Below, one piece after another: positions 726-61,029 of a stretch of DNA of 64,000 nt. Both the position numbers and the translations under genes were made by a program. The notes below the pieces were generated by a model. The model was given only the letters and a program-made list of their open reading frames with translations. It was not told the origin of the DNA and made no database searches. Position 1 is the stretch's first letter, and each line of letters begins with the position of its first letter. Source of the DNA: Panorpa germanica (lineage: Eukaryota > Arthropoda > Insecta > Mecoptera > Panorpidae); the NCBI GenBank assembly GCA_963678705.1, contig OY783209.1:8494001-8558000 (forward strand), in the 5' to 3' direction.

Positions 726-1161
726 AGCTAGGTGTATGTGCTATGTCATCGAAAAACTCGTTTGTAAAAAATTGAAAAATATAATGTAATTCTGTAACAC
801 ATCTTCTTGAAATATTTATTTAAGAAATTGATAAAGTTTAACATATTTTAATACTATAAAACTATATTATAGCATTCGGTAAATTAAATATCTGGCTTGA
901 AGAGGTTCGTGGGTAGTTTGATAATTCAGTGAATTTCTCGCGCAGCTCCCGTCAACTGTCATCTGCCTCATTTAGTTTGTGTTTTCAGCCTTTGAAAACA
1001 GCTATCCGCGCGATGGATGCTGTGATTGCGATTGAGTGTGTAGTCACCTCAAAAGGCAAAAATCCTTAAATTGGGCTACTAACTGCTACCTCATCCATCA
1101 TATTCTTCAAATTTAGCACCCTGCGACTATATCCTGTTTCTGAACCAGAAGAACCAGATAA
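726..1161. other. Intergenic, nothing recognised
   Basis: This follows the stop of the partial gene and probably includes its 3' untranslated region. I see no gene, RNA or clear repeat here. Confidence 0.4.
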
Positions 1162-1335
1162 TGGCTGAGCGGTAAGAGATTTGGGTCTAACAAAGAGATC
1201 ATTACATAATAAGAGGTCAATAAGCGCCTAATTTGAGGGCCTTGAGAAAAAGCCTAATATTTGGAAGGAATAAAAAAATTAGAAAAACCCGGGACTAAAT
1301 TTATCGAGCTTAAAGAAGGCTATGTTGAGAAATAA
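1162..1335 (+). pseudogene. Decayed mariner transposase 3' end
   Basis: The frame starting at 1162 reads WLSGKRFGSNKEIIT, then two stops, and further on GIKKLEK and FIELKEGYVEK followed by a stop at 1333. This is the usual C-terminal segment of mariner transposases. Frameshifts and stops interrupt it, so it is dead. A related tail lies on the other strand at 26509-26715. Confidence 0.75.
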
Positions 1336-1537
1336 AATGAGAAAAGTCACTGAATTACATAACTACCCTCTTACATCTAAGTTTACCTGTATAAATGTGT
1401 TACTGACAGCATCGCCAGCTATTCCACGACACTTTCTTCAAAAAACAAGTAGAGTCAGATAACTGATTGGAAGCCAAACAAAATTGCGCAAATTCCCCAC
1501 CCCCTTCCCTCCTCCTTTCTTTACACCTCTTCTATCA

Positions 1538-1797
1538 CAGTAAACATTTGGTGAAGTGTCCTATTTTGTGACGTTTCTATCACTATTTCACTTCAATTAT
1601 AGTTCGCATCAACTTTATCTTCATTTGTATTCCGACAGGTGGACTGGTTCCGTCATCTGTAGCCGATAAAATAGACATTTCATATGAACGATTGTGAGAA
1701 ACTGAACTATAAATGAACTCTTTCATTACGAAAAAATCATACGCATCTCCAATATGATGTCAAAGTGACTCCAAAATGTTCCAAAATGTTTACTGGG
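1538..1797 (+). mobile_element. MITE-B1 copy 1
   Basis: The ends resemble CAGTAAACATTTGG on the left and CCAAAATGTTTACTGGG on the right, which are inverted copies. The interior closely matches 6351-6604 and 26745-27007. The sequence CCAAAATGTT is duplicated near the right end. No coding capacity. Confidence 0.85.
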
Positions 1798-2846
1798 ATA
1801 TGTGGACAATAAACCCATCCGCTTACCATAATGATACATTTATGACCTGCGTATTTTTTGTTCAAACCTAGTATGATTATAATTTAAGGTTATGTTCTCA
1901 TTACACCTTCCTTTAAGTACAAAACTAATTAAACTCCTAAATAGTAGCGTCAAAGCTTTATTGTTTCTCCTATCTTAATCAACTATGCAGTACATTCCAT
2001 TCATTAAATATAACTTAATAACATAATAGACCTGTATTACCTATTGTTTAACGCAGCTAAATTTCCATTTACAATAGTCTCTTGCATAATACAAACACAC
2101 ACACACACACATAACTCGTACACCATCGACATAGTAACAAGAATTGATGTTCTTGATATAGTGTAATAATTGCTGCAGATATATCAGGCGAAGCACTAAA
2201 CAAATGAAAACAGCAAATACATAATTACTGCAGTTACTTTTATGTAACTAGAACTGCATGAAACAAAACGACTTACATTTTTAAAATTAACAATATGACA
2301 ATAAACTTAGATATGTAACTCATTAGCTGTTTTACAAAGTTTGTAAAGAGACGACTCTTAAAACAGTGCCTTCAAGTGTTTAGTTAATAGAGTCCTATCA
2401 CGTTCCCTTTTTACTTCTAAGTTCTATTCGTATACGTATACGTAATGATGTAGAACAGGGTGCTTCGAAATATATTAATTTATTTCTAACTAAATAAACA
2501 AGTAATTAATTTTAAAGTTATTAATTATTAAAGTTAGTAAATCTCAAAGAGTACATCTTCTGTCAAGGAATTCTAATGATGTTCAAATATTGATAGATGT
2601 AAAATAATTATTTATTTATTATTTATACTGGAGTCGAAATATATAACTAATGATAAAACTGAACGCCCTACATAAACGAGGTTCTTTTAAATATTTATTT
2701 GAGTGCATCACCCTTATAGTTTTAACATTACAACAATTGATACATTTATAAATGCTTGTAATACATAATTTATAGTTTATAAATAAAAATATGTGTAAGT
2801 AAAAAAGTATAAATAAAATATGTGTATAAATAAAAATAGGTGGCAA
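1798..2846. other. AT-rich intergenic
   Basis: No gene found. The only defined feature is a short CA run at 2095-2111. Confidence 0.4.
2095..2111. repeat. (CA)n microsatellite
   Basis: A run of about eight AC dinucleotides. Confidence 0.9.
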
Positions 2847-3190
2847 GGTCAAAACGATAAGAAAGAAGCACATTTTCGATATTGTTTTTTGACGACACAG
2901 TTAATATATAATTATTTCTATAATTACTACATGATAAAATAACATTTGAAGAATACTTTGTGAAATTTTCATAAATAATTATCAAGAAATGAGACATTGA
3001 CAGCGAATCTCCGAAGACGTCTCAAAAAAATGTAACATTGCGGAACCACTCATAACTCATCACTGGATTTTCTGAAATCAAAAAATCCAAAATGATTCTA
3101 TTAGTTGATAAGTTTCTACAGATAACGCTGTCAAGTTTTTCTGTTTTTATTAATTTTTCAATTTTTTACAGCACTTAAAAGTCAAAATAC
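2847..3190 (-). repeat. 344-bp dispersed repeat, copy 1 (inverted relative to copy 2)
   Basis: The reverse complement of this interval matches 44282-44625 nearly throughout, including a shared short reading frame (NFTKYSSNVILSCSNYRNNY in both). That frame is best explained as repeat sequence rather than a gene. Just outside, 3259-3275 carries an inverted copy of the segment at 3121-3140 (the AACGCTGTC motif), so this copy has an internal hairpin. Confidence 0.8.
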
Positions 3191-6100
3191 GAATTTTTCA
3201 TGAAAAAAAATTAGAAACTTTATTTTAAAATACGTTAAAATTAAAAAATTAAAAAAAACTCGACAGCGTTACCTCGGCATTTATGTAAAGAAATAGTGTG
3301 CAAAATTTCAAAAGAATCGGTCCAGTAAATTTTGAACTAGAGATGGCATAGACTCTGAAAAACCTATGTATGAGAAACCGCATTTAAAAGTTTCAAATTA
3401 GCACGAAAGCATACCAAGAGAGTGAAGACTTAAAACTTTATATCTTGGACAGTTTTACTCCAATCGATTTCAAATTTTCACACAATAAACTTAATATGTT
3501 GTACAATAATATAAATAAATTTGGGTAAAATTTTTATGACCTATCATGATTCTACATATTGTTACTTTCAGCCGTCTATTCAGTCCTACCTATAAATCTT
3601 GTTTAGAAACTGAATACTTTATTTCTTTTAAAAAGGTAGTTCTATACGATCATACTTAGATTCTGATTCAAATATATAGTTAACGGTTTTTTTTAACCTT
3701 AAATACATACGCCATATCGGAATACATCTATGGCGCCATATATCTTAAATCCGCCACTGCATATAGAGATAATAAGATTCTCATAAATTGATATACTACA
3801 ATTTTATAACCCCATTTACATTTCAATATTCTACATACTTGTTGTTGTAAGCAGAGTTTTTAATTTGCTAAATATACAGTAAACGATAATAAGTCTAAAA
3901 GCACTTGAGGTCTTTTTTATGCACTAGTACCGACTAACTACGCCTGCTACATCGGCAACGACGGCAACGGGTTCATAAACTGACTATAAAAACCTTATTT
4001 AGTTTAATACCAGCTTCTACCTACTGCGGTGTACTCTCCACAGAGATTCGCTATATTTTTACTAGCAAAAATAATTATACAAATAAAGTTTATACACACC
4101 TCTTATATTGTGTACACACCCGTAATGTTAGTGGCTGAAAACTTATAATACTGATAGTAAAATCTTCTCTTTTATTAGTGAAAAGAAGGTGTTTCTCTTT
4201 TCATATTAATAGTAACGCTATTTATCTTTTAGATAATTGTGTACTGTTATAACTCAGCTTGGACTTTAAAATAAAATAAATCAGCGTCGTCCATCGCGGG
4301 TGGTGTACCCAACATCATTCCATTATATCTTCAATGTAAAATACCATTAATTTTACTTTTGATACATTTACTTAACTATAAAAAAGTTACTTGACTATAA
4401 TTCCCATAATAAATATAATCTATATTCAAAAGCTAGCTTCTTCATCTACTTCATCAAATAAAATGATTAATGCGTTGCGAAGAAAAAGAATATAAATAAA
4501 ACAAAACAATTCAGGAAATAGGTCATCGTATTTGAAAAGGAACTGTCGATTTTCAGTTCAATCAAGAGGAAGAGTAATATTTTCTACATAAATATTTAAA
4601 CTTGGTCTAGATTTCAAAATGATTCAGCAATATAATAATAAACGCCTAAATGATGCAACCACAATAACATTTCAAGTTTAATTATCTGTATAATACAATT
4701 ATATGGGTGATTGAAATAGTAATTAATTTTAGGTACACAAAATTAATGTTATAATTGGACTGATTTGATATATATATATATATATATATATACACGCGCT
4801 CTACAATATAATGTTACATATATAAACCGGTAGAAATTTTCGATTTATTACCATAAAATTATTTTGCATATAATAATCATTTTGTGTTTTGCTTCTATGT
4901 CATAAAAAGTAACATTATGCTTGGTTTATTATTCTCGCAAACAACTTTTAAATTGCGCAATACTTTCCTAAGAATAAAAATATATTTAATATTGTATCAT
5001 GCAGTATTTTGCTTATTTCATGCTTAAATATAATTTATAATACATTTTTAATGTTTTTATAAGAAAATACATTTATTTTAAATTTAATATAGATATAGTT
5101 GTGTATACTTATATATTATTTTCATGCAAAACGTGTTCTTTTATATATTATACCTTTTATATATTGAATATATTTTAATTTTCATATTCAAAAAAATAAC
5201 ATGTTATAGATGTTGCATGTTCATATTTTGCAGGTACATGTTATGTATATATTTATTTAAGACTGGTGAATTGATTTAAACAAATATAGAGCATGTTAAT
5301 AATTGAGGGATTATGCAGCTTGTTAATAGACATTTATTATTTAAATAGAACGTAAAATATATCTTTAGATGTAAATTTTACTAGATTGCTCAGAGTAGGG
5401 TGCATATGTCAATTGCCAGATCAAAATATGAAATCGAAAAGAAATATTTTAGATTTCTTTTTACAAATTTTGAGTTTTCAAAATCTATAATATTTAAATT
5501 GTATATATGCTCTAATCTTCATCTGAATTTGAACTTTTTAGGTAAACAAAGTATTTTTTATTAAGTATTAAGTATTAATATTAATTAGAATAGAGTCATT
5601 ATATATTGGATCATTGCGTAATATATTTATTTACTATTTTCTATGTATGTCATAATATTTATTTATTATTAAACACAAACCTTTTGGTAGAATTTTTCTT
5701 GTCACTTAATAAAATTAAAAATCAAAATTTTCTCACAATAACAATAAATAAATAACACTAAATCACATTGCACAATTAATATTAAACCTTAAGTTTAATT
5801 AAAAATATCCGTTTCTTATTAGAAATGGTCACAACAACATATCATATATAATAAACGTAACAAATTTTTATCATATCGATATACCAAAAGCCACAATTAT
5901 ACTGAACCAAGTGGCAGGCGTGTATACAACCCAAAGCACACTCAAACACACTGAGTTGCCTAAAAATTTTGAACAGGCGCACAAGCTCTGTATGTTTAAA
6001 TCCACGGCTTTTATTATAAAACTAATCATAAAAATATGAAATAAATAAATTTAATACCTCAATAATATACTATTATTTATTATCAGTTTTATTGTGAAAT

Positions 6101-11689: not shown

Positions 11690-11771
11690 CGCTGCGGACA
11701 GGATTCGAACCTGTGCGGGTAGAACCCATTGGATTTCAAGTCCAACTCCTTAACCACTCGGACACCGCAGC
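11690..11771 (-). tRNA. tRNA-Ser (anticodon UGA)
   Basis: Read on the minus strand, all arms fold. The 7-bp acceptor stem is GCTGCGG/CCGCAGC with discriminator G. The D arm has TCC/GGA around GAGTGGTTAA. The anticodon stem GTTGGA/TCCAAT encloses loop CTTGAAA, giving anticodon TGA. The long variable arm has GGGT/ACCC, and the T arm is ACAGG-TTCGAAT-CCTGT. The extra arm is the serine signature. The length is 82 nt without an intron. Both internal promoter boxes (GAGTGGTTAAG and GGTTCGAATCC) look intact, so it is probably active. It reads others' UCA codons and lies about 0.8 kb from the divergently oriented GABPB gene. Confidence 0.97.
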
Positions 11772-18700: not shown

Positions 18701-18786
18701 CTGATTATAATGGGCGAAGAACTGTAAATGATATTAAAAAGTTTATGCAGAATCCACCTTCTCAGAAATTAGATGATGAACTATAA
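15720..18786 (+). CDS. PDIA5: PDIA5-like protein disulfide isomerase with four CxxC thioredoxin domains
   Basis: Ten coding exons: 15720-15749, 15849-16078, 16150-16354, 16491-16711, 16782-17055, 17136-17294, 17371-17512, 17581-17783, 18266-18440, 18521-18786. They give 634 aa. Residues 1-21 are a signal peptide split by intron 1. Residues about 30-130 form an N-terminal thioredoxin-like domain without a CxxC, as in PDIA5. Four redox domains follow, with active sites CGFC (177-180), CGHC (299-302), CGHC (422-425) and CGHC (548-551). Each has the usual cis-proline motif (GFPT, GYPT) and a PEY or PEF after the active site. Introns 7 and 9 both split the tryptophan codon just before CGHC at the same phase, a sign of domain duplication. 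The protein ends DDEL, a KDEL-type ER-retention signal. The role is oxidation and isomerisation of disulfides in the ER lumen. Human PDIA5 has three CxxC domains, so this is one more. Confidence 0.93.
17826..17903 (+). other. Imperfect hairpin inside PDI intron 8
   Basis: Inverted blocks GGAATC/GATTCC, TTCCTG/CAGGAA and TTTCATCT/AGATGAAA nest around a loop of about 20 nt, giving a 78-nt stem-loop. One side has a 9-nt bulge, which is unlike a standard microRNA precursor. Intron 8 is 482 bp, whereas the other PDI introns are 68-136 bp. Confidence 0.25.
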
Positions 18787-19800: not shown

Positions 19801-19974
19801 TGCTAGGTACACAAGAACGCCTACCTCCTTAGCATCTATGCAACTATAGTAACTTTAGTGTCAGTTATATATATTTTATTTAAATAATTAATATTTCAAA
19901 TGTGTTTAATTTTTTAATTGATCTGTATCCGATACACTTTAAATTGTTAAACTGTTTAATTAAATTTACAATAT

Positions 19975-22485
19975 CTACGCTTTTCAGGCTTTTTGCAATC
20001 TTTTCTCAATACATATGCTTTTTTTTAAAAGACCAAGTTTTTTTTATTCAATTTCATTGATACAGTTACCTTCCATATACTCAAATATAAAAAAATTCTT
20101 GATTAAATTTTAAAGAACTAAGCGTGTCTGTCTTTTATGCGACCTTTTTTAAATTCATGGACTTTTTTTTCTAAAATTTTTATTGGATTTCTTGAAATTT
20201 TTTGATGCAGTTATGTTCGTTAGGCTTTAAATTAAATAACTGCTTTATTACATTTTAAATATCTAAGCGATTCTGGCTTTTATGCGACCTTTTTTAAATT
20301 CATGGACTTTTTTTTCTAAATTTTTTTTTTGGATTTCTTGAAATTTTTTGATGCAGTTATGTTCGTTAGGCTTTAAATTAAAGAACTGCTTCATTACATT
20401 TTAAATATCTACGCGATTCCGGCTTTTATGCGACCTTTCTTAAATTCATGGACTTTTTTTTCTTAATTTTTTTTTGGATTTCTTGAAATTTTTTGATGCA
20501 GTTATGTTCGTTAGGCTTTAAAGTAAATAACTGCTTCATTACATTTTAAATATCTACGCGATTCTGGCTTTCATGCGACCTTTTTTAAATTCATGGACTT
20601 TTTTTTTCTAAATTTTTTTTTTGGATTTCTTGAAATTTTTTGATGCAGTTATGTTCGTTAGGCTTTAAATTAAAGAACTGCTTCATTACATTTTAAATAT
20701 CTACGCGGTTCTGGCTTTTATGCGACCTTTTTTAAATTCATGGACTTTTTTTTTCTAAATTTTTTTTTGGATTTCTTGAAATTTTTTGATGCAGTTATCT
20801 TCGTTAGGCTTTAAAGTAAATAACTGCATCATTACATTTTAGAATCCTACGCGATTCTGGCTTTTATGCGACATTTTTTGAATTCATGGACTTTTTTTTC
20901 TAAAATTCTTTTTGGATTTCTTGAATTTTTTTTATGTAGTTATGTTTGCTAGACTTTAAAGTAAATAACTGCTTCATTACATTTTAAATACCCACGCGAT
21001 TTTAGCTTTTAAGCGACCTTTTTTATTTCCATGGACATTTTTTTCAAAAAGAAAAAATTACATTTTTTTGATTTTTTTGATGTTAATGTTTTAATGTTTT
21101 AAATTAAAAAACTGCATCATTAGATTTTAAATATCTACGCAGAAACTCAAAAAAATGCATTGCTCTTAAAATCATAAAAGTGAACCTTTTCATCATTTTT
21201 AACAAGATTATAGTCTTCTTTCATTGCATACTCTGATATAGAGATTTAATATATTGATATATCATAAACTAAAATACTTATTTAAAAATGAATTATAAAT
21301 ATAAAATCAGCATTCAAAATTAAGTTAAAATCCGTTATAAAATGACATATATTTTTCTTAAATTTTTATGAAAAGTAAGAAGGTTATACTCTTCTTACTT
21401 TTCATAAAAATTGAAAAAAAATCTTTATTTTTATAATGGTCTTTAACATAATTTTGAATGCTGATTTTATATTTATAATTAATTTTTAAATAAGTATTTT
21501 AGTTTATGATACATCAATATATTAAATCTCTTTATCGGAGCATGGTATGAAAGAAGACTATAATCTTGTTAAAAATGATGAAAAGGTTCACTTTTATGAT
21601 TTTAAGAGCAATGCAATTTTTTGAGTTTCTGCGTAGATATTCAAAATCTAATGAAGCAGTTCTTTAATTTAAAACATTACGAACATAATTGCATCAAAAG
21701 AATTCAAGAAAATGTAATTTTTTCTTTTTGAAAAAAATGTCCATTAAAATAAAAAGGGTCTCATAAAAGCTAAAATCGCGTAGATATTTAAAATCTAATG
21801 ATGCAGTTTTTTATTTTAGAGCATAGCCAACATAACTGTATCAAATTATTCCAAAGAATCAAAAGAAAATTTTAGAAAGAAAATGTCCATGAAAATAAAA
21901 AAGGTCTCATAAAAGCCAAAATTGCGTAGATATTTAAAATCTAATGATGCCGTTTTTTTATTTTAGAGCATAGCCAACATAACTGCATCAAAATTTTCCA
22001 AAGAATCAAAAAAAAATTTTAGAAAGAAAATGTCCATGAAAATAAAAAAGTTCGCATAAAAGCCAAAATCGCGTAGATATTTAAAATCTAATGATGCAGT
22101 TTTTTATTTTAGAGCATAGCCAACATTACTGCATCTAAATTTTAGAAAGAATCAAAAAAAAATTTTAGAAAAAAAATGTCCATGAAAATAAAAAGGGTCG
22201 CATAAAAGCCAAAATCGCGTAAGAATTTAAAATCTAATGAAGCAGTTTTTTGTTTAAGAACATAGTGAACATAACTGCATCAAAATATTCCAAAGAATCA
22301 AAAAAAAATTTTAGAAAAAAATGTCCATGAAAATAAAAAAGGTCGCATAAAAACCAATATCGCGTAGGTATTTAAAAATTAATGAAGCAGTTTTTTATTT
22401 TAGAGCATAAGCAAGGTAACTGTATCAAAATATTTCATAGAATAAAAAAAAAATTAGAAAAAAATGTCTACGAATTTAATAGACA
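19975..22485. repeat. Large inverted repeat built of 145-147 bp tandem units (foldback-like structure)
   Basis: The left arm contains seven units, marked by GCGACC or its variant at 20139, 20284, 20430, 20575, 20722, 20868 and 21013. The right arm contains the same unit inverted, marked at 21757, 21903, 22050, 22196 and 22341. Spacing is 145-147 bp in both arms. The arms meet at a perfect 22-bp palindrome with an 8-bp loop (21361-21382 / 21391-21412). The 370 bp on each side of that centre is also mirrored. The outermost unit of each arm shares a variant, GATACAGTTACCTT, where inner units have GATGCAGTTATGTT. So the two outer ends correspond, and the left arm has two extra units. No protein-coding capacity is seen. 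It could be a Foldback-type transposon, an inverted satellite, or a long-hairpin RNA locus. Confidence 0.92.
21361..21412. repeat. Central perfect palindrome of the inverted array
   Basis: Two 22-bp arms are exact reverse complements, separated by GTTATACT. This is the symmetry centre of the 2.5-kb structure. Confidence 0.97.
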
Positions 22486-24121
22486 TCATTTCGCCTGATT
22501 GAGCGGCAACATTACTTACGAGCAAAATTTACAGTTCAAGAAAATCAGTAAACCTATTGTAAACGTTGAATTTTTAATATTTAGCAAATATTGAATTTTC
22601 CCATGTTTTGCAATGTAAAAATGAAAATGTTAAAATTTCAATAAAAAATACGAATTGTTTTTTCTTGACGAAACAAGAACATAATTATATCAAAATCACG
22701 AATATGTTGAATACGCAATTTTATGTTTACAAAAATATGTTCTACTCTTCCGAGTTGCCACGCGGCTTTAATAAGTTTTGCTGTGTGCGATTATTACAAG
22801 GATGTGACATACAAACCAAGGTAAAACATATTAGGTGTCATATTTAATAAACATGTTATTAAATTCGGGGATGCCTCAGGATCTCTGACGTCACTATGTA
22901 AAACAACTGATTAATTTTACAAATCTCCTGTTTTCTTTTCTTTCCTTTATGTATCTTTAGACAGTACCAAAGGCTTCGAATAAGAAGAGAAAGACGTGAA
23001 AGTAAGACGTGATGAAATCGTAGACTTAAAGATATACATGTAAAAGTAGTTGCATCTAATAAGTCGCAGGCATAAAATGTGATTCAATGTTAGACTCATA
23101 ACTAAATGAAATATGTAATTCCTTGGCTTCTTTCCTTATTGTTCACTTTCTATATTATATTATCTTTACTCAATAAACTTTACTTGTTTCCTTTTCAAAC
23201 AAAATCATTATTGATATATGAAATTTTCAGTTGTTTGTACAAAGTTTTGTTCAGGTTGATACGCCTGATATATATGCATCCCTAATAACGCTATGGAATG
23301 GTATGGAACGGCGGATACCATGTGTAGATTATTTTTCAATGGCTTTTCTTTAGATCGTATAAAACTTCTTTTGAGATTAATCGTTTAATATTTAATAACT
23401 GAACATGTTTATGATGCACAACGTAATTTCCCGAGTGAACTTAGCTTGTTAAATTCCGATTAACTTTAAATTTGAATTCATTTTTCACGTAAGATTAAAG
23501 ATGAAGTTTTTTGCAAGAAAATTACATTTATTGAATTAAGAATTTGGAATGGGTTTGTGTTTTATAGGTTATAACTTTTAAGAGAGTGATTCGGAATTTT
23601 TTTACCGTTGATTGCTTGAACCTTCTCATGCAGGTGAATGCTTACTTATAGGTTCATCCCCGCAGAAATGTGTTTTACATTACCATCCTAAAATTGAGAT
23701 AAACCGGAGAATCAGCTCTTGAGCAGTCTGTAATACTAAGCACATAACTACAGTGGTGTTAGAAATAAAACACAGAGAAATTTGTTTTACAATATTTTTT
23801 ATTATATGAAGATTATTTTATTTACCTAAACTTCGAAATATTTTTTTTCATTGCTACAAACGCCAACATAATTATATTGAACTTAATTATTTATATTTAA
23901 AAATAGTTTTATTTAGGTATATGATATAACATTAATTCTTTTTATGACAACAAAATAAACAATTTAAATAAAAATAAGTTATATAATGGTTTATATTTCA
24001 ATAAATATACAATATTACATGAATTTTATTTACTTTTAATATATTTTATAATTTTTACTAAATTAGTAGTTACACATATGACAAATCTCAGTGTTGCCTG
24101 AGGAGGAATTTATCATTATTT
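22486..24121. other. Intergenic between the inverted array and the sNPF 3' end
   Basis: AT-rich, no gene seen. The reading frame at 22608-22847 has no recognisable content. Confidence 0.4.
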
Positions 24122-27200: not shown

Positions 27201-30200
27201 TTTCGACAATATGCTTTAGTTTTTTGAATCTATTTGTTTATTTTGTTTTCAGAAGTGCCTTTTAATTCATCTTCACAGTCGTAGTCAACGGATGGCCCCT
27301 TTCCAATGACTTTAAATATGAATTAAAAATGGCTTTACGTACTAAATAGAAAAAAAGAAATATTTTGGCTACGCGTATTTCGAAACACCATGTTGTCGTA
27401 AAGAGACGTTTACATCTCCGTTATGGACATTGTCCTTTTTTCTCATAAAATTATAGTCAGGGGGATTCCGGACTTTTTCTTCAAACAATACAATAATAGG
27501 TAGTTTGTGTCAGCACCAAAATATTGAGTTAGTTAGTTATTTGGTGAGTTAATTCTTTGCAATACATTTATTCCATCTCCGGGAATCAAACTCGGACCTA
27601 AGTATAGCTGAGTGTTAAAGACTCTAGCTTAACTACCTAGACCACCAACAGAACAACAATAATCTTATAAATTGTTTCAAGTTACTTAACTTGGAATATA
27701 ACTTTAAATAAACTAAATTGATATCAACTGCCATCTGTTTTTTATATCCTCGAACTAATAAATACCCTCTGACTAACAAAATATTTCTATTATCTTTAAC
27801 ATTTCTTACACCACAGGTTTTTACACATCTTAAGAAAGCAACTGCTATTATTATAAATGAATTTAACAGTAATCGTAAATAAATTTGACATAAACTAATG
27901 CCATAAAACGTTAGATGCTTTATTAAGTACGTATTTATGTTATTATTTTCCCATAAATAGCCATTTAGATTATGGAACATAAACTACTCGTACCAAACGG
28001 TTCTATAAAAAAAATCCATAAATTGGTGTTTCACTTTAAAAGTTTTAATCTTCTTAAAAAAAATTGTTGTTGCATGGATATATGGATATATAGGAAACTT
28101 GACCCCCATAAGAAGAAAGATTTATTTTCCAAAAATTTCCAGGATCGGTAAATTTTGCTCAAAGTTTTTCTAAAAAACAGAGCACAGAAATTTTTAATAA
28201 AGTAAACAGAAACATTTTAATTAAGACTTGAGAAATGGAGAAAAGTTCTAAAGACATTTTTGGGTCTATTTTATTTCTATTTAAAAATAATTTACCTTTC
28301 CTGGTAAAAGCCAATTCTTACTTACTTACTCAAAAAAGTACCATTACATGTGCACCCACCCATAAATAGAAAGGGCGGAATCTATATTCTTATGTTGTGT
28401 TAAAATTATGTTAATGCTAGCTTTAGTGGTAAATTAATTTATCAAAAAGCAATGTTAATCTTTTCCTTTTTAATAATAAATATTAGTTCATTATTACATA
28501 TTAGAAAGAAGCATATTTAAGTTAGTTATGTAATCAGAAATCATGATATTTAATTAGTGCAATTAGTGTTGGACACACCAGTCTCAACGAAGAATTATTT
28601 AGTTACCTGTAAGACAAGAAAATTTGTTGCTGGCACATTTTGAGAGAATGAGGAAAATTTAAGTACCATACCTGCATTCTGGCTTGGGGTGCAGAATTAA
28701 CTGAGCGGCCAAAACGTAACCGCATTGTTGGGGAGCGTTGGGCTTTCTGCATAACAGGCTCGTCTCCAGCAATCTGTCCAGCAAAAAAAATACAAACAGT
28801 TAAATAAAGGCCTAGTCAACATTTTGGTAAAATGGCATAACTAGATGAAGTTCCATTTACATTATAAAATATTTATTTTAGTAGAGAAAATATTTCAAAT
28901 TCATTTCACAAGAACATCATAGAAAAAGAAACAAGATATATCTGTCTCTGTTACATTATAATGACAACTTCATTCCTTGCTGATAGTCTAGAACGTTCTG
29001 ACTTTTTTTAAAAATATTTATTTGTATGTGGTCATACGAATACTATTATAAAATCTTTTATGTACACCTCTTATTAGGTGCTTAATTACATTCCAGTAAA
29101 CAATTTGGTGAAGTGCCCTATGTAGTTACGTTAGAGTCACTCGTACAATTCAATTCTAACGCTTTACAAGTTCTCTACCTGTCACAGATTTTGTGTTAGT
29201 TGTTAGAATTTTTTCATAATAATATTCTTTCTTTTTCCAACATCATTCATTAAGTAGCAATTGTTTCTTTCACACTAGGATATATATTTGTTTAGTTCAT
29301 TTTCATTCCAAAGTGAGAGAGAAACGAGATGCGGTTAGACAAGTAAAATATATTTTTCACCGTTACACTTGTATAGTATTTCGTTCAGTACAGTATGTTT
29401 AAAGTATATGCTATCCTTTTTCAACAAATATTTCTTTAATGGTAATAGGCACACGCTGTCTCCCTCAATCTCCGAATATAATGTGTTTAAACGAATACTC
29501 TAAGCAGCGAGGGTAAGACAGAGGTTTTAAACCTAACGCAGACCTGCCGATCGTAGATTTTTGAATCACCAAAACAATGTAAAAAACTAATATAACGAGT
29601 ATTGTTGAAGATGAATAATATTCATTAAAAAAATCACGATCCGTTTATATATTATATTTTGCAGACTCTAAAAAATAGAATTCCATTAAGTTTTATACCC
29701 CTGCCATCCCTGCTAGTATCAAGTTTATAACTCCGGTCATAAATCATAAACCGACTCCGCTTTTAATTCAGCAGTGAACCGTCATTGCGATCTCTGTAGG
29801 TCATAAAAAGGGCCTTTCCTATGAACGACTGAATGGAAAACGAACACGTTCCAGACAAAAAACTCATGATATGTAATAGAAATTAAGTAGAATTTACTCC
29901 AAAATGTTTACTGGGATCTTGTATGAACCTTACGAATACGTTATCTTAAGATTTACCTCGGATCTGAACAAAGGGTCTGAGCGACGGCCGAAGCGAAGAC
30001 GCAGAGAAGGAGAGCGTGCTACTTTGGGTGCCATCTCTTCATCCAATTGCGGTTCCTCCTAAACAGATTAAATTTATCTTCAATATCTGTTTAAATGATA
30101 TCTATTTCTAGTTTAGATTCCATGAATTATACAGGATCACATTTTATCAACTACTGTTCTTGGCACACGGCAGCTGAGGTGCGCGGGGGATGGGGTGAGC

Positions 30201-60185: not shown

Positions 60186-60896
60186 AAACAGAATAATTTC
60201 AGTGTTTGGACGACGTTTGGCCATCACTGTTATTCAAAGTGACTATGAGTTTGTTTTAGATACAAGTTCATACAAGAGATAAATGTTCGATGAACATTAG
60301 CAGCATTAGGCTTTTATTTTCCATGTAATGAACACATTAGTATCGCAGGTACACTCACTGCTAATGTTTCCTGACTTAATTATTTACCTTCATTACAGAC
60401 AGGAAATTATTGGTTATTCATTTTTAATTTCAATTCGGAAACTAAGAAATTTATATCGCTTTACAAGTAGAGTAAAGTGGAGTAGAGTCTTCTAAAACGA
60501 GGTTAATGAATGCTTATACATTTTAGACAGTACAGGGTAATTCGGCTCATAGTCATGAAACCTATGAAGCAGCGGTGTAGTTAAATATATATATATATAC
60601 ATAATATTTTATAAAAATATGAAATATGAATGAAAAATAGTCTAGATAATTTTTATAAAAAAATTCTTTCATCTTTTCACAGACATTTTGTTTTATTGAC
60701 GTCACATGAAGCGAATAATATAATCTCCCGTTTTAGGGATTTTACTCGTATATTACAAAAAATAGATTCAAATATACAGACAAATATCCACTGGACATTG
60801 CTACACGGGGAATTACAAATATTTAATATAAAATCCGATGATATTTATATTTGCACAGGTACGACCAGGGACGGACTTGCTTTGAAAAAAAAAAAA
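60186..60896. other. AT-rich, no gene seen
   Basis: No gene recognised; the frame at 60630-60965 runs into the TA repeat. Confidence 0.35.

Positions 60897-61029
<133 letters not shown>

Follow-up and report, generated by a model that had tools for sequence, protein, structure and literature searches.

What builds a kilobase-scale hairpin out of short tandem repeats in an insect genome? We address this question for a locus in a 64,000-nucleotide stretch of Panorpa germanica DNA (contig OY783209.1, positions 8,494,001 to 8,558,000; hereafter the window). A preliminary description of the window had reported two facing arrays, seven units on the left and five on the right, and our repeat and unit analysis confirms both this tally and the spacing of the unit starts, 145-147 bp in each array. 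The bounds it gave (19975-22485) are too narrow, as homology to sister copies elsewhere in the genome spans 19857-22547. We consider it very likely that this locus is a degraded member of a non-autonomous Helitron family, with the Helitron direction on the minus strand, and that the hairpin of facing arrays is its passenger. We show here that members of this family are dispersed, that their arrays face each other, and that, where ends are kept, these are Helitron ends at an A|T target.

Helitron ends on a dispersed family

A search for other copies, which the preliminary description had proposed, was run on the window's own genome (464 Mb in 249 contigs) and found at least 92 distinct loci in three rounds (34 + 26 + 32). 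With a 2.5-kb query there were 358 matches; the best 34 of 1474 candidates were scored, and all 34 loci were read (33 fetched, plus the window). Near-full-length matches in this set are 81-87% identical. In each of the 34 loci, every counted plus-strand unit lies to the left of every counted minus-strand unit (619 units, 2-23 per arm). These counts omit units with 120 or fewer aligned query bases, and short fragments in the opposite orientation are present below that cut-off, for example in L015 and L031. Because the 2.5-kb query held both arms, the left array alone was used as a second query (230 matches, best 40 of 1171 candidates scored). Its 150 listed matches represent 39 loci, 25 with plus-strand followed by minus-strand matches, 14 with matches on one strand, and none with any other order; the one-strand loci include the window, L030, and L040, all of which are facing by the full unit count. 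When the query was only the inverted core that lies between the arrays, 40 of 40 scored loci (best 40 of 1023 candidates) matched on both strands over the same span. Contig C21 holds 15 of the 60 listed array loci on 10% of the genome (binomial p = 0.0009), a skew that the rank-cut lists may bias.

Such recurrence at many loci bears on the doubt, raised in the preliminary description, that the two arms are an assembly artefact, and likewise on a sequencing artefact formed by inverted read-through of a hairpin. So does the divergence between arms: over the 34 loci, identity within the longest mirrored alignment is 79-95% and nowhere near 100%, meaning that arms differ by 5-21%. We rejected an artefact on this divergence and give it next to no chance.

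When the flanks of the loci are compared, homology stops abruptly at two points, one on each side of the element: ACTAGCTGTTCGGCCCGTCGCAAGACAACG and TCCTATATTATAATGTTCC. In the Helitron reading direction, the first breakpoint is a 3' hairpin with CTAG after it, and the second is a 5' TC end; complete copies have the canonical layout A|TCCTATATT...hairpin...CTAG|T, and the 3' end sequence of the family is CGTTGTCTTGCGACGGGCCGAACAGCTAG. The 5' end was recognized in seven of the 34 loci (up to three substitutions), preceded by A in all seven; L020 has it twice in tandem, the outer one after A and the inner one after C. The 3' end was recognized in 13 loci, which carry 14 such ends (up to four substitutions), and T comes next in 14 of 14. 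Both ends are kept in five loci, L009 (3076 bp), L020 (6419 bp), L022 (4938 bp), L023 (5036 bp), and L024 (4753 bp). The numbers of independent ends are slightly lower than these counts because L031 and L038 have common flanks and the same repeat flanks both L017 and L034. In L024, the only family member folded, the 3' hairpin has an 8-bp stem and finishes 12 nt ahead of the terminus, a position much like that of canonical Helitrons (∼11 nt) as described in PMC4067079. Complete members run from a 5' module of ∼0.2-0.9 kb, starting at TC, through array, inverted core, and array to a 3' part of ∼45-175 bp with the hairpin and CTAG, and they are inserted between A and T. The compact minimal form is represented by L009, which has a 5' module of ∼200 bp, the arrays and core, and a 3' end of ∼45 bp.

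Could these instead be the ends of a Foldback-type or other transposon with terminal inverted repeats (TIRs), in which the inverted repeats consist of tandem units, as in Tetris? The overall shape, with tandem arrays that face each other across a short middle, would fit such an element, and L038 bears the same 3' end sequence on both sides, both reading CTGG. However, the complete copies have no TIRs, as TCCTATATT... and ...CAGCTAG are not mutually inverted, and a comparison of four copies, including L022 with its simple-sequence flanks, showed no target-site duplication. We rejected a TIR transposon, which we judge very unlikely, because complete copies have Helitron-type ends and no target duplication is visible in them. 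The preliminary description, in suggesting a Foldback-type element, was right about a mobile element made of inverted tandem arrays, but the copies that keep their ends have Helitron ends rather than TIRs.

The ends also recur across the genome. Allowing up to three mismatches, the 34-nt 3' end has 141 matches and the 30-nt 5' end has 2362, with no match to either reversed control. The target T is kept in all of the 100 3' ends listed from the 141 matches, and 15 of these 100 adjoin one of the 60 listed array loci; all 15 point outward. An exact search of viral contigs for the 24-nt 5' end, as a trace of spread via viruses, gave no match. Some 3' ends are clustered: three on the same strand (G000:C19:10974119, 10979361, and 10985012) are spaced 5.2-5.7 kb apart and may mark tandem Helitrons, and a pair at G000:C6:1044084 and 1047009, 2.9 kb apart, points outward.

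In L016, on the minus strand near 1867, the element's 5' side is directly adjoined by a Helitron-like 3' end of another kind (GTCGCATTGCGACGGGGGTAAACTCTAG|T), and a motif like GTCGCATTGCGACGGGGGTAAACTCTAG is also found within the 5' module of L020, L022, L023, and L024. L017, L025, L033, and L034 have a repeat in common (...GGCGCGAGATTCAAAT...) that flanks them beyond the 5' side, and it is also present in the flank of L009.

Inheritance of the hairpin

How would a Helitron family come to carry such a structure to many sites? A Rep/helicase encoded elsewhere in the genome would recognize the ends and replicate the element by the rolling-circle route; the arrays would then change in length by unequal exchange or slippage, and the hairpin would be passive cargo. 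The Helitron Rep domain PF14214 has 150 matches in this genome (best 150 of 893 candidates) and none in 14 control genomes. Three autonomous-type 3' regions (L042, L043, and L044) have a hairpin and then AGCTAG|T, the same layout in a different sequence.

We built a tree of 63 core halves, dropping matches that span fewer than 200 query bases, so that six loci contribute one half. The halves from L019, L020, L022, L023, and L024 form two clades (support 100/99 and 100/98), with one half of each locus in each clade. A half from any of these five loci lies 0.00-0.02 from the nearest same half elsewhere and 0.20-0.24 from its own partner. Therefore, the palindrome predates the spread of these five copies and was copied whole. 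On the evidence of this tree, we take the hairpin to have been shown to be copied as one passenger in one group of five loci. A rolling-circle transposon can apparently copy a multi-kilobase satellite hairpin intact, which bears on how satellite DNA is dispersed and on what the Helitron intermediate tolerates. The many copies in one genome also form a natural series in which to study how long palindromes lengthen, invert, and contract and whether scattered hairpins supply small-RNA pathways.

Among the units of the 34 loci, 507 belong to one monomer type and 112 to a second. Units of the second type often lie outermost in their arrays, which would be expected had the inner units been homogenized. 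In L029, positions 3895-5728 are a tandem array with a period of ∼163 bp. Its repeats consist of core pieces, not 146-bp units, as though a second satellite were arising from the core.

It is tempting to ask whether the facing arrangement itself has been selected. A hairpin in the single-stranded intermediate, or double-stranded RNA (dsRNA), might aid the replication of the element or tune its silencing, and the element might also be a source of inverted duplications of the surrounding chromosome; we consider this rather unlikely. The last part is hinted at by two of the 34 loci. The flanks are mirrored in L036 (G000:C7:18963640-18970918; 110-1662 against 7279-5741 at 96%) and in L038 (G000:C21:3574426-3581505; 728-3222 against 6352-3938 at 94%), and therefore the palindrome reaches beyond the element in both.

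Several observations weigh against a Helitron origin with a passively carried hairpin. Only five of the 34 loci have both ends, and 21 have no recognized 3' end; among the 100 listed 3' ends, 85 are not beside any listed array locus. A genome search returned no precise empty site for L020, and no autonomous copy with the family's own ends was found among the three examined (L042, L043, and L044). The window copy has neither Helitron end, and its membership is based on homology. In the tree, the wider two-type split of all core halves is weak (66/81). The halves of L016, L027, L036, and L040 lie within 0.02-0.05 of each other, which may reflect conversion or re-formation, and the core halves of L019 are reversed relative to its 5' side, an order that recombination between arms could give. 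The following would suit an independent palindromic satellite, in which array, core, and array spread by their own means (excised circles or ectopic exchange) and were caught by Helitrons in some copies: the 21 loci without a recognized 3' end, together with the 27 of 34 without a 5' end, arrays that border unshared sequence in some loci, and the core-derived tandem array of L029. However, loss of ends is expected in old copies, every listed 3' end that adjoins an array locus (15 of 15) faces outward, and in five loci both ends are kept between A and T. We therefore regard an independent satellite as decidedly improbable.

Comparison with known elements

Short non-autonomous Helitrons are described from insects, including Hel-2, with a 250-bp consensus (PMC4344730), and Hel1, at 162-257 bp for three exemplars of one species (PMC6544945). 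As presented in these sources, they resemble the family studied here in the 5' TC, the 3' hairpin and CTRR, the A|T target, the lack of coding sequence, and dispersal. In contrast to those short elements, the family here is 3.1-6.4 kb long and consists mostly of facing satellite arrays.

Rolling-circle relatives that disperse short satellite-like arrays between left and right modules are closer in this respect, namely the oyster Cg_HINE (PMC7492417) and DINE-1 (PMC4067079), both non-autonomous Helentrons with central repeats (HINEs), as far as these accounts describe them. Cg_HINE, the closest of those described, is presented as having central repeats in one orientation only and monomers mostly of 160-180 bp. 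In P. germanica, by contrast, the arrays face inward in all 34 loci read, and the ends belong to the canonical A|T class of Helitrons.

Facing arrays themselves are described in TIR elements. Both Tetris of Drosophila virilis, the repeats of which seeded satellite DNA (PMC4079207), and the longest copy of Galileo in D. willistoni (PMC4168063) are reported to have facing tandem arrays that form a giant inverted repeat, with target duplications of 8-10 bp and 7-8 bp, respectively. The family here is alike in its arrays, but neither TIRs nor target duplications were seen in it. The 154-bp tandem repeats derived from Helitron-2 in D. virilis (PMC12910113) share a similar repeat length and the tie to a Helitron, but facing arrays do not figure in the portion of that description drawn on here, and the PIWI-interacting RNA (piRNA) data belong to that system. 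Satellite-carrying relatives of Helitrons are thus already known, and it is facing arrays within canonical Helitron ends that look new. No Helitron with facing arrays appeared among the titles and abstract openings listed from the open-licence literature, which is weak evidence of absence.

The window copy and its neighbors

The features of the window copy are collected in Table 1. In the preliminary description, its center was called a perfect 22-bp palindrome and its symmetry exact. The 22-bp inverted repeat is indeed perfect, but its arms are parted by an 8-nt loop; likewise, the symmetry holds for the layout but not for the sequence. Aligned to each other, the arms are 84.4% identical over 2198 bp, and the best match of any single unit in the opposite arm is 76-83%. 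Four of the left units are 98-99% identical to units of other loci. The arms of the window copy are therefore mirrored in layout and are not recent copies of each other. The RNA folding that the preliminary description proposed as a check gave a strong cross-arm fold. For 19857-22547, the predicted energy is -1211 kcal/mol, compared with -478 ± 13 kcal/mol for eight dinucleotide shuffles, and 1001 of 1111 predicted pairs join the two arms. The inverted structure is thus far beyond chance.

Table 1. Parts of the Helitron-like copy in the window, with coordinates in the window
Feature	Position	Strand	Basis
Remnant of Helitron 3' module	19857..19993	-	89% to positions 10-146 of the 175-bp 3' module of L024; terminal 29 bp with hairpin and CTAG absent
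Left array, seven ∼145-bp units	20083..21049	+	Repeat period (145 bp, 6.6 copies) and unit count
Core inverted repeat, left half	21092..21356	+	92% complementary to 21415-21679
Central perfect hairpin, 22-bp arms, 8-nt loop	21361..21412	.	Arms 21361-21382 / 21391-21412; arm in 34 of 34 loci (up to 3 substitutions)
Core inverted repeat, right half	21415..21679	-	92% complementary to 21092-21356
Right array, five ∼146-bp units, all of the second monomer type	21631..22468	-	Repeat period (146 bp, 5.8 copies) and unit count
Edge sequence, Helitron 5' side	22469..22547	-	Common to other loci; 5' terminal module beyond it absent

Many loci share the boundary at 22545-22547, beyond which other copies extend further outward. 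In the window, homology ends at 22547 before any 5' module, and the 5' module has no match there. With this module and the terminal 29 bp of the 3' module both missing, the window copy is probably a relic that is no longer mobile. Elsewhere in the 64 kb, a search for a further copy gave only two short matches (E = 0.001). Within 19857-22547, there is no open reading frame of 60 or more amino acids in the list for 10000-32000.

Even a relic might have a function, and a transcript through both arms could form long dsRNA and hence endogenous small interfering RNAs, or the arrays could feed piRNAs. Such a hairpin-RNA locus would be compatible with a Helitron origin. The very stable predicted fold and its 1001 pairs across the arms would suit it, and the Helitron-2-derived 154-nt repeats of D. 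virilis are described as yielding piRNAs (PMC12910113). However, the arms of the window copy are only ∼84% alike, poly(A)-like signals intervene between it and its neighbors, and nothing sets it apart from its many sisters in a family of at least 92 loci. We consider a functional hairpin-RNA locus rather unlikely here.

The locus lies between convergent coding sequences, which the preliminary description put 5.4 kb apart. The gap is instead ∼9.9 kb, from the PDI stop at 18786 to the nearest of three sNPF-like peptides at 28722. Between the PDI stop and the element there are three AATAAA and three ATTAAA putative poly(A) signals, where ∼2.3 AATAAA are expected by chance; between the nearest sNPF peptide and the element, the minus strand has 20 AATAAA. 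These poly(A)-like signals are hints only, as AT-rich DNA gives such a rate by chance too. With putative signals on both sides, read-through into the element should not be assumed. The sole match of the window to a structured RNA family (Rfam, gathering threshold) is a tRNA at 11690-11771, and an extended (AT)n tract, with its 2-bp unit repeated 66 times, occupies 60896-61028.
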